A stretch of 64,000 nucleotides of DNA from Linnemannia hyalina (lineage: Eukaryota; Mortierellomycota; Mortierellomycetes; Mortierellales; Mortierellaceae): the NCBI GenBank assembly GCA_019671135.1, contig JAHRHY010000003.1, positions 1,488,001 to 1,552,000 on the forward strand, given 5' to 3'. A model generated the notes under the pieces. The model was not told the DNA's origin. It did no database searches and saw nothing but the letters and a program-made list of their open reading frames with translations. This document shows, piece after piece, positions 4,899 through 46,900 of the stretch (position 1 is the first letter of the stretch; the number at the start of each line of letters is the position of its first letter). The position numbers were made by a program, and so were the translations under genes.

Positions 4899-7378
<2,480 letters not shown>

Positions 7379-20091: not shown

Positions 20092-21400
20092 ATGGAGGGC
20101 CTCGATAACAGCAACGCCGCCACAGTTAACACCAACACCAATAGTAGTTCAACTGCCAGTAATAGTGCCCTGTTGGCCTTCAACCTTCCTCTCGACAGCT
20201 TCGCCTCGGCTCCAACACCTACTCAGCGCTCGATGAATCCGGGCGTCTTGGCCATCTGCCTGACTAACGAGTCTAGCGGGGACGCCAACTGCTACGTTTA
20301 TTCGACCTGTAAGTTTTCACCCCCTCAAAGCACATGTTGTTTTCGACCTAGCTCTTTTCGCCTTTTGTCTAAGGACAACAACGCTCAGGACACATGAACT
20401 AAAAGGAACATCCTTTCCTATATATGCGAGCTAGTGGAGGGCAGTAAGCGGTGGTGTTCCTGACATCGCTTTTAATGATTGCGCGACAATGCTCACTGGC
20501 CTGAGTGGCAGTCGGGCCAGTGAGCAGAGTCGCCAGGTCGGCATCTTGAAGGCGACTGCTTCGTTTGTGAGAGAGATGAACCCACATCCTACCACAACAA
20601 CAGCACCGTTCGATGATGCCGGCCACCCATCACCGACCTACAGCAGTGGAGTCGGAGGAATAGAAGGATCATTTGGAGACGAGGTTGACATACGGACACG
20701 AGTCGATGCCACCCTGACGATTACTTCGAACGACGACAAAATGAACACCTGGTTTGGATTCAAGTCTGGGGGCGCTTTGTACCTGCGGGGTGACGGATGG
20801 GACGACATGGACATTCGAGAGGTAAATAGCAATAACGCCTCGTTGTATCGAAAACACGTTCAGTTTGGAATTGATACCGTTTTTTTGCTCGTCATGTCGT
20901 TTGTTGTTCGGGCGGGTTTTCCTGCGGTGGAAACCATATTAGACCGTTTGAGAACCACTCATGGCTGACTGACTGGAGGACTACTGGCTGTCAATGGGGA
21001 CCCTGCACTGACTTTCTTTTCTGTTCCTTGTTTAATAATATGAATGATCCGAATAGAGTATTGTTGCGGCATTAGAGCTTGCGGAGGAGCAACTTGAATG
21101 CACATCTGTCTACCTGTGCCTCGAGAAGAGCAATCCCCATCTCAGTAAGTGTTATGTGCCTATGCTTAAAGACTTACACTAATGATCTTTACACTGACAC
21201 ATTGTATTTGGCCATCTAACGTGATCTGAACGAAGGAGAGTTGTTGAACTCTTTGTTTGCTAACATCCAAATTTTTTTGTGGTACGACTTTGATAGCACA
21301 ACTCACACATGCGCTGTTGTATGCAACGTTTCAGTTGGTTACCCCGGGGGTATTACCCCACGCAGACCCCAAGTACCTGGTCATGGGGATTGACTTTTGA
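20092..21400 (+). CDS. OAZ: Ornithine decarboxylase antizyme, decoded by programmed +1 frameshift
   Basis: Antizyme binds ornithine decarboxylase, inhibits it and targets it to the proteasome; polyamines raise its frameshifting, closing a feedback loop. Exons: 20092-20308, 20435-20821, 21057-21144 and 21297-21400; phases agree at every junction except for the one deliberate shift. Zero frame: MEGLDNSNAATV... ends EGSKRWCS then TGA at 20461 (81 residues). Skipping one base at the TGA opens the +1 frame, DIAFNDCATMLTGL..., which stays open through two introns to TGA at 21398. Total about 264 residues. The C-terminal part is the antizyme fold: SIVAALELAEEQLECTSVYL, then LTHALLYATFQLVTPG and YLVMGIDF, matching AEEQL...V..C..K and PG...P in the family. 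TATG-rich start alternatives include an in-frame ATG at 19936. Identification rests on slip site plus domain. Confidence 0.9.
20452..20466 (+). promoter_or_regulatory. Antizyme +1 ribosomal frameshift site
   Basis: Codons TGG TGT TCC TGA C read Trp-Cys-Ser-stop in the zero frame. This is the same TCC-TGA shift site, with the same WCS codon context, as known in animal antizymes. The alternative +1 reading GAC ATC GCT enters the long downstream frame. Confidence 0.9.
20490..20526 (+). promoter_or_regulatory. Stable hairpin 3' of the antizyme shift site
   Basis: TGCTCACTGGCC (20490-20501) is perfectly complementary to GGCCAGTGAGCA (20515-20526). The stem extends inward by a U-G, a G-C and an A-U pair to 15 bp, leaving a 7-nt loop at 20505-20511. 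It starts 26 nt after the TGA and lies in coding sequence. A frameshift-stimulating role is inferred. Confidence 0.75.
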
Positions 21401-43900: not shown

Positions 43901-46900
43901 CCCACGTTCAATCGAATGGCGCCGCTGAAGCTGGAAGAGTGTGTTGGTCAGGCGAGAACTGGAGGAGAACCTACCTTCGTTGAGCCACTTCAGTATCTGA
44001 TGAGCGGAGTTGTCCGCTCCCTCATCGGTTTAGAAAAGCTCAAGAGAAAGGCACCTCACACCCAAGGTTAATTATGTCAGGTTGATGTCACATCAAAATT
44101 CTTCGTGAAAAATTGACAGACTGAACAGTGAGTACTGACATTACATCCATATTATGCCAAGTAGCCATATCGGCGGATGACCAGCTGGTGGAGGAGTGTG
44201 TTCGAGATCTGGATAACATCCTCTTGGGTCTCGAACGCGCGGGATTGGAGGACTTTGCACTCGACAAGACGTCTGACTTTAGTATGGCAAGCAACATTGG
44301 CGCTCGTAACAACATGTATGCTACGCTGTTAAATGGCTGCTACGAGGCTGCGATCGAGTTTGTGGTGTTGAGGCAATCGTCTCAAGGCGAAACCTCTGCT
44401 TCAAACGGTAAAGGTATTGCTCACAGCCGCCAGAGCTCGTCAGACCGTCAGTTTCAATCCATGACCCTCAACGCTGGATGTTCCGATTTGATTCTGCACT
44501 TGTTTGGCAAGATGCGCAAGCTTCACGATATTGTCAAAGATAAGGTCGTTATGCAGCGAGGTAAACTACGACGATGGTTTTTTTATGCTCCGTATTGTAT
44601 GACGACGTATCGGTACTAGTAGTGACTAATTGCAATGGGACATTGCCACCTGAATTTATACGCTGGTAGGCAAAAAGTTGGGTCCACTCGGCGAGTCATC
44701 GGCACTTGGAGTTGAGTGTGTGACAAAGCTGGTGGAGTGTATGTTCGCAGAGCCTACCGACGGTGAAGAACCAGATGCAGAAGCTCTCAGACTCAAATCA
44801 AACGACGAGTTTTTGGTTTATATCACGACAGTCATTCAAGCTTTGCTGACAAGGGTATGTGACACAAGAAGAAGTAGACCCATCGTTGGTGACAAATGGC
44901 ATGCTGCTCCATCTTCCATTGCTAACAAAACATTTCTCTTTCTGTTGCTACTATGTTCTAGCTGCACACCTCTGCAGAGTCGCTGAGCGACAATGATTAT
45001 GACTACTGCAGGAGACTCACGAGCGTACTGGTACGTGAGTTCATTGTCAGCGAGAGACCTGATGGACCCAAGGCCATGGCGGCAGGAGCGAAGGGCAAGG
45101 ATAAGAACAAGTCCTGGTTGATGTCTGGAATCGAGGCGCTCACAGCTGGTCTGATGACCGTTCAACGATTCTACCCTGTTAATCCCTCGGTAATGGGTAC
45201 CACATCCGAATCTCTTCACAACCGCAAGGTTGTTGCCGGGTTCTTGGCTGCAACACTGCCTCAAGCCAATGGTGGCCATGGACGTGATCAGCGAGCGTCG
45301 GATGTGGTTGCCTGGACCACTTCACGGACGATCCGTAACGATGTCGACAGTCTTGCGGCTGCCTACATTCAATACTTGCAGGAGCTGCTGGTTATGTTTG
45401 TGAACGAGACTATCCCTCTGTTGAAAGAGGCCGTCGGTGTTCTCCAAGTGATCCAAGTCCTCTCGCAATATCTCTCACGATCTAGCGATCTCGACAGCCA
45501 GGGTGGCCAACAAGGTGCCGGCAACTCAGGTCTCTCCCGCGCCAGCTCGACACTGAGTACGGACTCTACATCGTCCGGACCAAGTCAATTGGATATGCTA
45601 GTCCATTGGTTGGTGAAACTATGCAGGGATCAGGCAGTGGACGACACGACGTTGACGAAGGCATTGCTGTCGATGATGCTACAGTTGGAGCAAGAGTGCA
45701 TGACCCCTCAAGCGAACGCGGACTTGTTGGCAGTTGATGATATTCCAAATGGTTCAGCGTCCAACGTCAAGCCCACCATGGGACCCGTCTCTCTCGGTTT
45801 TGGCAGTGTTACAGCATCATCCGTGGTTGCACAGTGCCCCGAGACTGCCACACGGTTGCGCCTGGCAGCAGATATCTTGCTCACTTATGGCATGAACCAT
45901 GGCGGTCCCAATTTGCCCAGTCTCCGAGACTTGCCGGACGAGATCCCACAAGGAGAAGGTGTGGAGGAAGGCATCATGCGGCTGTTCAATTTGAAAAGGG
46001 AAATTGGTATCGAGGCTCGGTTTTCGGTCGTGACCATACGGACGTCCGGTGTTGTCGCGGATGTCCTGTTGCAGCAAGTCGAGCGTTCGCTCGAAGGCCT
46101 TGAATGGGCCTTGGGCAAACTCCGATTCTGCGGATTGGCTCAAGCAGGTAAGCATTTAACCCCTCAGTCTATTCTATTATGCCCATGGCTCTTTTGTCTT
46201 TTTTTGACGCAGTCTCAACCCCGACCTTTATCTATGTGTTCTCGGCCACTTCAATCCAATTCCCCCCCCCCCCCCCCCCCAGAAAAAAAAACGTGCCCGG
46301 TGCAGAGTAAGGCAAGAGGACAGGAGGGTGTATCAAAAGGGGTGTAATCAGTGTCGGAGCCAGAACCAGGACTTTGGTAGAGACATTATCGCTCAGCGGC
46401 ACTCGACACTCCATAGAGCATCAGCGAGTTCGAGGAGCCAAGGTGAAAAGTGGGTAAACCGTTGAAGTTGAAATACAATAGTGATAAGAGGCGAAAAAAG
46501 AGAAAATGGAGCAAGGAGGAGTTCGATTGGCGAATATTTTGGAAATTGAGTTGCGGAGATTATTATTTTTTGGACCGTGGAATATTAGATCAAGCTGATA
46601 AGATCTTGGCGGTCTGGGTTCTCTCAATTGCGTCTTTTTTTGTTCTATTTATTGGCACAATTGCATTTTTCAATTACCATGGACTATTCATACGCACCAA
46701 CAGACCTATATCAAAGGTGAAAGGGGTTGGTTGGTTGGAGATTGTTACTTGGGTTGGCAATTTTAGTTTTACGAGTACTTTTGTACCTGTGGGCATTGCC
46801 TTTTTGTTTTCCTTATCATGGTCGAGATGAAAAGAGAGGAGAGGGGAAGCGGACGCTGTGGACCTACTGAGTTTGTGTCTGTATCTGTGGGAGGGAATTG

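Follow-up and report, generated by a model that had tools for sequence, protein, structure and literature searches.

What purpose is served by the long hairpin that follows the frameshift site of an antizyme gene in the fungus Linnemannia hyalina? The gene lies in a stretch of 64,000 nucleotides, here called the window (C23:1488001-1552000, the contig being JAHRHY010000003.1), within a genome assembly of 51.5 Mb in 50 contigs. A first-pass annotation of the window, made from its letters, had proposed that a slip site and an adjacent hairpin form an antizyme frameshift cassette. By comparison of the gene with a paralog and with homologous proteins, the hairpin is a conserved RNA element, and we consider it likely that the locus is a polyamine-regulated antizyme frameshift cassette in which this element acts as a distal 3' RNA stimulator of +1 frameshifting.

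The window gene, from a Mortierellaceae-like fungus, is an antizyme gene, as the first-pass annotation had it. The product of its downstream open reading frame (ORF2) matches PF02100 (ODC_AZ) with an E-value of 3.7e-11 (43.4 bits, cut-off 24.2), and a profile of ORF2 matches four solved antizyme sequences, the best with an E-value of 1.5e-10. A six-frame scan of the genome with the PF02100 family gave no match here or in control genomes; the domain in this gene is split over exons. The two frames overlap, with ORF1 ending at the shift codon plus UGA and the main domain lying in the +1 frame, and a complete antizyme seems to need ribosomes that skip one base at the stop codon. All parts are on the forward strand, with splice sites predicted from frame and consensus. 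ORF1 begins at the ATG at 20092 (MEGLDNSN.., exon 1, 20092..20308) and joins exon 2 in frame across intron 1 (20309..20434, GTAAGT..CTAG); when that intron ends with CTAG at 20434, the zero frame closes as ..YVYSTLEGSKRWCS, of which exon 2 contributes 20435..20463 (..LEGSKRWCS). Its last codons are exactly those described before, TGG TGT TCC TGA at 20452..20463, with UCC at 20458-20460 and UGA at 20461-20463. According to a review, antizymes usually shift at UCC_UGA, and the codon two places 5' of that site is strongly conserved as UGG (PMC5009743). From GAC at 20462 the +1 frame is open through a first coding exon (20462..20821, DIAFNDCATMLTGL..MDIRE), and continues past two introns (20822-21056 and 21145-21296) into a second coding exon (21057..21144) and a last one (21297..21400, ..KYLVMGIDF*), whose TGA ends at 21400.

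The hairpin itself is larger than it had appeared. The inverted repeat of 12 perfect base pairs, or 15 with one U.G, stands exactly at the positions first given, 20490-20526, with its 5' arm at 20490..20504, a 7-nt loop GTGGCAG at 20505..20511 and its 3' arm at 20512..20526. The distance of 26 nt from the UGA holds for this upper stem; a lower stem of GCGAC (20483..20487) and GTCGC (20529..20533), set off by a 2x2 internal loop (20488..20489 and 20527..20528), extends the fold to 20483-20533, so that the whole starts 19 nt after the UGA, behind the spacer 20464..20482. This is the larger fold of which the repeat had been suspected to be the start. From the first P-site base to the foot of the stem is 25 nt, which by ribosome footprint sizes would put the stem outside the mRNA tunnel of a ribosome on the UGA. 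The 51-nt element has a minimum free energy of -39.2 kcal/mol and a z-score of -8.4 against dinucleotide shuffles, and among 79 sixty-nucleotide windows of the spliced mRNA the hairpin is the strongest (z -6.5; best non-overlapping window -2.5). The repeat is the sole perfect Watson-Crick hairpin of at least 10 bp (loop 3-20) in the whole 64 kb; with G.U pairs allowed, stems of equal or greater length are one of 17 bp at 44196-44240 with an 11-nt loop, one of 16 bp on the minus strand, and others of 15 bp. The strands pair codon against codon, from 8:24 to 14:18 of the +1 frame, and this register places middle bases opposite middle bases.

A second antizyme gene, AZ-B, lies on the same contig (C23:1824203-1825343), and a protein search of the genome found, apart from these two, only two weak matches (E 0.12 and 4.8). 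ORF1 of AZ-B ends TGG CGG CCC TGA, after which the +1 frame following CCC is open to the end; CCC_UGA is a rare shift site among antizymes. AZ-B keeps 17 of the 20 pairs of the window gene: ten are unchanged, four survive a one-sided change, three are two-sided compensatory changes (U-A to A-U and twice C-G to U-A), and three are lost. Only 114 of 20,000 synonymous encodings of AZ-B keep the pairs as well. The loop GUGGCAG is identical in the two genes. Among degenerate codons for the same residue, identity between the paralogs is 7/7 in codons 1-8, 6/9 in codons 9-24, 5/8 in codons 25-40 and 16/30 in codons 41-120, the first class slightly exceeding the 19-nt spacer as codon 8 is already inside the stem. 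This near-identity of the spacer 20464-20482, synonymous bases included, hints at a role of its own for the spacer.

For species beyond L. hyalina the pairing was read from proteins. One scan each of viral and genome contigs with a single-protein query, a procedure that finds close relatives only, returned no DNA relatives, hence this choice; every residue but serine determines the middle base of its codon. A first protein search gave 86 homologs, the named ones from Mortierella, Linnemannia, Podila, Dissophora and kin, all of them Mortierellales. Among them are P0005 of L. elongata (93% identity over 66% of the query) and P0001 (83% over the full query). Together with the window gene and the paralog these made 88 sequences, which, after rows nearly without the region had been dropped and mis-spliced rows trimmed to codon 14 onward, reduced to 63 distinct strings. 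In the true register 230 of 258 cells were paired (0.89), against 0.17-0.65 in ten other registers. Restricted to codons 8-14 and their partners, the count was 230/257, a value reached by none of 5000 column shuffles (mean 218.8, best 227). A second search, in which the best 8000 candidates were scored, yielded 109 sequences. Eleven that had no copy of the region or did not fit the anchor pattern were left out, as was P0071, whose loop is shorter by one codon, which gave 97 sequences and 71 distinct strings. Here 270 of 301 mid-codon cells were paired with serine excluded (mean of the column matchings 0.55), and 298 of 334 with 3'-arm serine read as AGY (mean 0.58); under both treatments, out of 5040 ways to match the seven 5' columns to the seven 3' columns, only two reached the observed value, one of them being the true matching. 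On a FastTree tree of the downstream protein, parsimony placed changes on both sides of a pair on four branches, all ending paired (C-G to U-A, C-G to G-C, U-A to C-G and G-C to A-U). Residue couples that keep a pair include P11:G21 for L:E, D13:V19 for G:A, I12:Y20 for T:C and M/I9:N23 for T:S, not all of them among those four branches. Thus the arms covary, in the paralog by compensatory change and in the proteins by mid-codon pairing, and the lack of covariation that the first-pass annotation had named as part of a refutation of the hairpin's role was not observed.

The peptide of the +1 frame occurs in relatives as well. It is found in 98 of the 109 sequences; the remaining 11 are truncated, bypass the region by splicing or escaped the anchor pattern. 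The loss of this frame in relatives, which by the first-pass annotation would have refuted the antizyme call, was thus not observed in these proteins. Codons 15-17 read (S/G/C)-G-(S/R) in all 98 anchored rows, compatible with NGU GGC AGN, although the anchor pattern itself demanded these residues. A more indirect sign of pairing may come from the gene models themselves. In 31 of the 96 homologs with the region, the predicted exon 1 join falls inside the 5' arm and skips the shift site, and all 31 have Cys at codon 20. A join there implies an AG and therefore an A at the third position of codon 12, which Cys20 (UGY) would face with a U; the window gene has Ser AGU, a U facing A, at the same place. 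The association gives a Fisher value of 2.3e-5, with relatedness ignored and the misaligned P0071 counted among the 24 others. Three of the 31, P0033, P0062 and P0067, carry the database name acyl-CoA N-acyltransferase.

Several observations weigh against this interpretation. The excess of co-change on the tree is modest, four branches against a mean of 1.6, and 120 of the 5040 matchings reach four (3'-arm serine as AGY). Taken singly, only 9:23 and 10:22 clearly beat shuffles, of which 18 and 2 in 2000 do as well as the observed pairing; 11:21, 12:20, 13:19 and 14:18 do not (173, 329, 269 and 1206 of 2000), and 8:24 is uninformative. Mismatches occur at T12:Y20 (two strings), D13:A19, G13:G19, H11:E21, R14:G18 (two), P14:E18, Q14:K18, K9:S23, R9:N23 and M9:T23; strings whose codon 10 is for Lys or Asn, with A as its middle base, are nearly all mismatched too. 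Covariation at the nucleotide level comes from two genes of one genome and the rest from proteins, in which mid-codon bases are certain and serine is ambiguous; the column shuffles, moreover, ignore relatedness. The hairpin of AZ-B is the weaker of the two, at -21.2 kcal/mol, with z-scores of -0.70 in 98 nt, -1.22 in 66 nt and -2.55 in 52 nt, and it lies outside the eight lowest of 72 windows of its mRNA. Finally, the review cited above gives a spacer range of 3-14 nt, which the 19 nt found here exceed (PMC5009743).

Could the hairpin have arisen for reasons other than frameshifting? That the inverted repeat merely follows from the encoded peptide or from codon bias is hardly credible. The peptide encoded around LTGLSGSRASEQSR is itself conserved, as such an explanation would have it, but synonymous recoding does not reproduce the pairing: recodings of codons 8-24 formed on average 11.9 of 22 pairs and at most 19, whereas the gene forms 20, a value reached by none of 20,000, and none of 4000 synonymous encodings reached -39.2 kcal/mol (mean -13.2). 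The recodings followed codon usage from the long ORFs of the window, and flat usage gives the same zeros, so that coding does not explain the hairpin. In the couples P11:G21, D13:V19 and M/I9:N23, moreover, the residues shift while the pair is kept. Control of splicing is a less remote explanation, yet still improbable. ORF1 and ORF2 would then be joined in one frame, either from another donor or at an acceptor within the 5' arm that the stem hides or exposes, and the 31 arm-joined homologs with their invariant Cys20 would fit. Other homologs read ..CYWRA.., as though the donor used lay 13 nt upstream, at TAC|GTTTAT by eye, likewise in one frame. Such models, however, look like the work of gene predictors dodging a stop beyond their model. 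The junction used has a consensus donor in both copies (GTAAGT and GTAAGC), and the window gene reads ACTGGC where the acceptor would be, without an AG, which leaves the strongest hairpin devoid of it. Control of splicing would also leave the UCC_UGA context and the UGG codon unexplained.

Somewhat more plausible, though still unlikely, is that the conserved RNA element serves this mRNA in some other way, for instance by slowing +1-frame ribosomes, by protein binding or through mRNA stability. The long spacer (beyond the range in PMC5009743) and the resemblance of the two paralogs in loop and spacer would suit such a role. Against it, both paralogs place the hairpin identically beside the shift site, and in Basidiomycota a structure at an equal distance stimulates frameshifting (PMC4505036). 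We therefore return to stimulation of the shift as the preferred explanation: the hairpin very probably helps +1 frameshifting, an effect on ribosomes that we infer.

The Basidiomycota structure is the closest known counterpart. As described by Yordanova et al. (2015), it starts 19 nt downstream, outside the mRNA tunnel, and consists of two directly adjacent stem-loops with covarying stems, an invariant AAAU abutting stem 1 and a 7-nt loop in which six bases are invariant; its deletion lowers frameshifting about 1.7-2-fold in HEK293T cells and 3.75-fold in S. pombe (PMC4505036). The element in L. hyalina resembles it in its position 3' of an antizyme +1 shift site, its covarying stems, the 7-nt length of its loop (here GUGGCAG) and its start at 19 nt, with the proviso that the Basidiomycota count runs from the frameshift site and may begin at another base. 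In contrast to the two adjacent stem-loops, the present element has one long stem, interrupted by a 2x2 internal loop, and its spacer 20464-20482 contains no AAAU. The idea in the first-pass annotation that the distance alone would mark a different design thus does not hold: a stimulator at this distance was already known, and what differs is the architecture, one long hairpin, paired in codon register around a GUGGCAG loop, in each of two paralogs. The 3' pseudoknots of animal antizymes, RF00381 and the invertebrate type, are likewise RNA stimulators of +1 frameshifting, a role that the present element would share. RF00381 gave no match beside the shift site, its only match being one of 15.2 bits (cut-off 40) elsewhere, at 20614-20670. 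The Saccharomyces cerevisiae antizyme is likewise fungal with a +1 shift at UGA, but the review gives it a GCG_UGA shift site and inhibitory control by the nascent peptide (PMC5009743). Judged by titles and the starts of abstracts, none of the papers found by searching describes this hairpin; priority is not established.

A plausible course of events can be drawn up for the frameshift cassette, in which the steps of slippage, polyamine response and decarboxylase feedback are carried over from antizymes in general. A ribosome whose P site holds UCC and whose A site holds UGA would pause; its serine tRNA would slip to CCU, and GAC would then be decoded in the +1 frame, with the hairpin just outside the mRNA entry tunnel favouring the slip over termination. 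A rise in polyamine would then increase slipping and hence antizyme, and ornithine decarboxylase would be removed. Two loci in the genome match PF02784, ornithine/arginine decarboxylase, a family wider than ornithine decarboxylase (C3:1183656-1184309 and C23:1049471-1050121), and they are possible targets of the antizymes. More speculatively, the likeness of loop and spacer in the paralogs would point to a contact with the ribosome surface and not to a simple roadblock.

Thirteen proteins came from a third protein search; those with names are from Jimgerdemannia, Basidiobolus, Endogone, Geosiphon, Dimargaris and chytrids, none is named as Basidiomycota, and the peptide motif was not visible by eye in these 13, several of which are too short at the N-terminus to judge. 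The proteins from Endogone (P0110), Geosiphon (P0113) and Chytriomyces (P0120) span the region and by eye are without the motif, and this speaks for an element that belongs to Mortierella-like fungi; another fold in these three would be compatible with the proteins. By the names of the matches, several species have two or more antizymes, so the duplication looks old. One might tentatively go further and suppose a two-threshold polyamine sensor in Mortierellaceae, although we regard this as doubtful. After an old duplication, one copy would combine UCC_UGA with a very strong distal hairpin and the other CCC_UGA with a weaker hairpin of the same architecture, the hairpin acting from outside the ribosome through loop and spacer as a stimulator class distinct from tunnel-entry pseudoknots. 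The hairpin itself, apart from this idea, gives a second fungal lineage with a conserved structure after the antizyme shift site that is too distant for the mRNA tunnel, and with so simple a hairpin the action of a stimulator from outside the ribosome becomes testable. For annotation, the arm-joined models indicate that database predictions of these genes often bypass the shift site.

Some minor observations concern the hairpin and the shift site. An outer pairing in the minimum-free-energy fold of 97 nt was set aside because it could not be traced by eye in the paralog, and a possible pseudoknot, pairing the loop with a CUGCU downstream, was dropped because its partner is absent there, again by eye. 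Rfam gave nothing at the curated cut-off, with six sub-threshold matches in the stretch from the window and two in that from the paralog. One of them, MIR9672, falls exactly on 20483-20533 (18.7 bits, cut-off 74) and was taken as a chance match to a hairpin; ACA64 and a minus-strand PtaRNA1, which also overlap it below threshold, were likewise taken as chance. The 12-mer TGGTGTTCCTGA recurs once in the window, at 7285-7296 on the forward strand, probably by chance (720 bases around it were read). In the proteins P0036 of Haplosporangium bisporale and P0043 of Podila epicladia, the first +1-frame codon encodes Ser and not Asp; if that codon is AGY, the zero frame would end in UAG rather than UGA.
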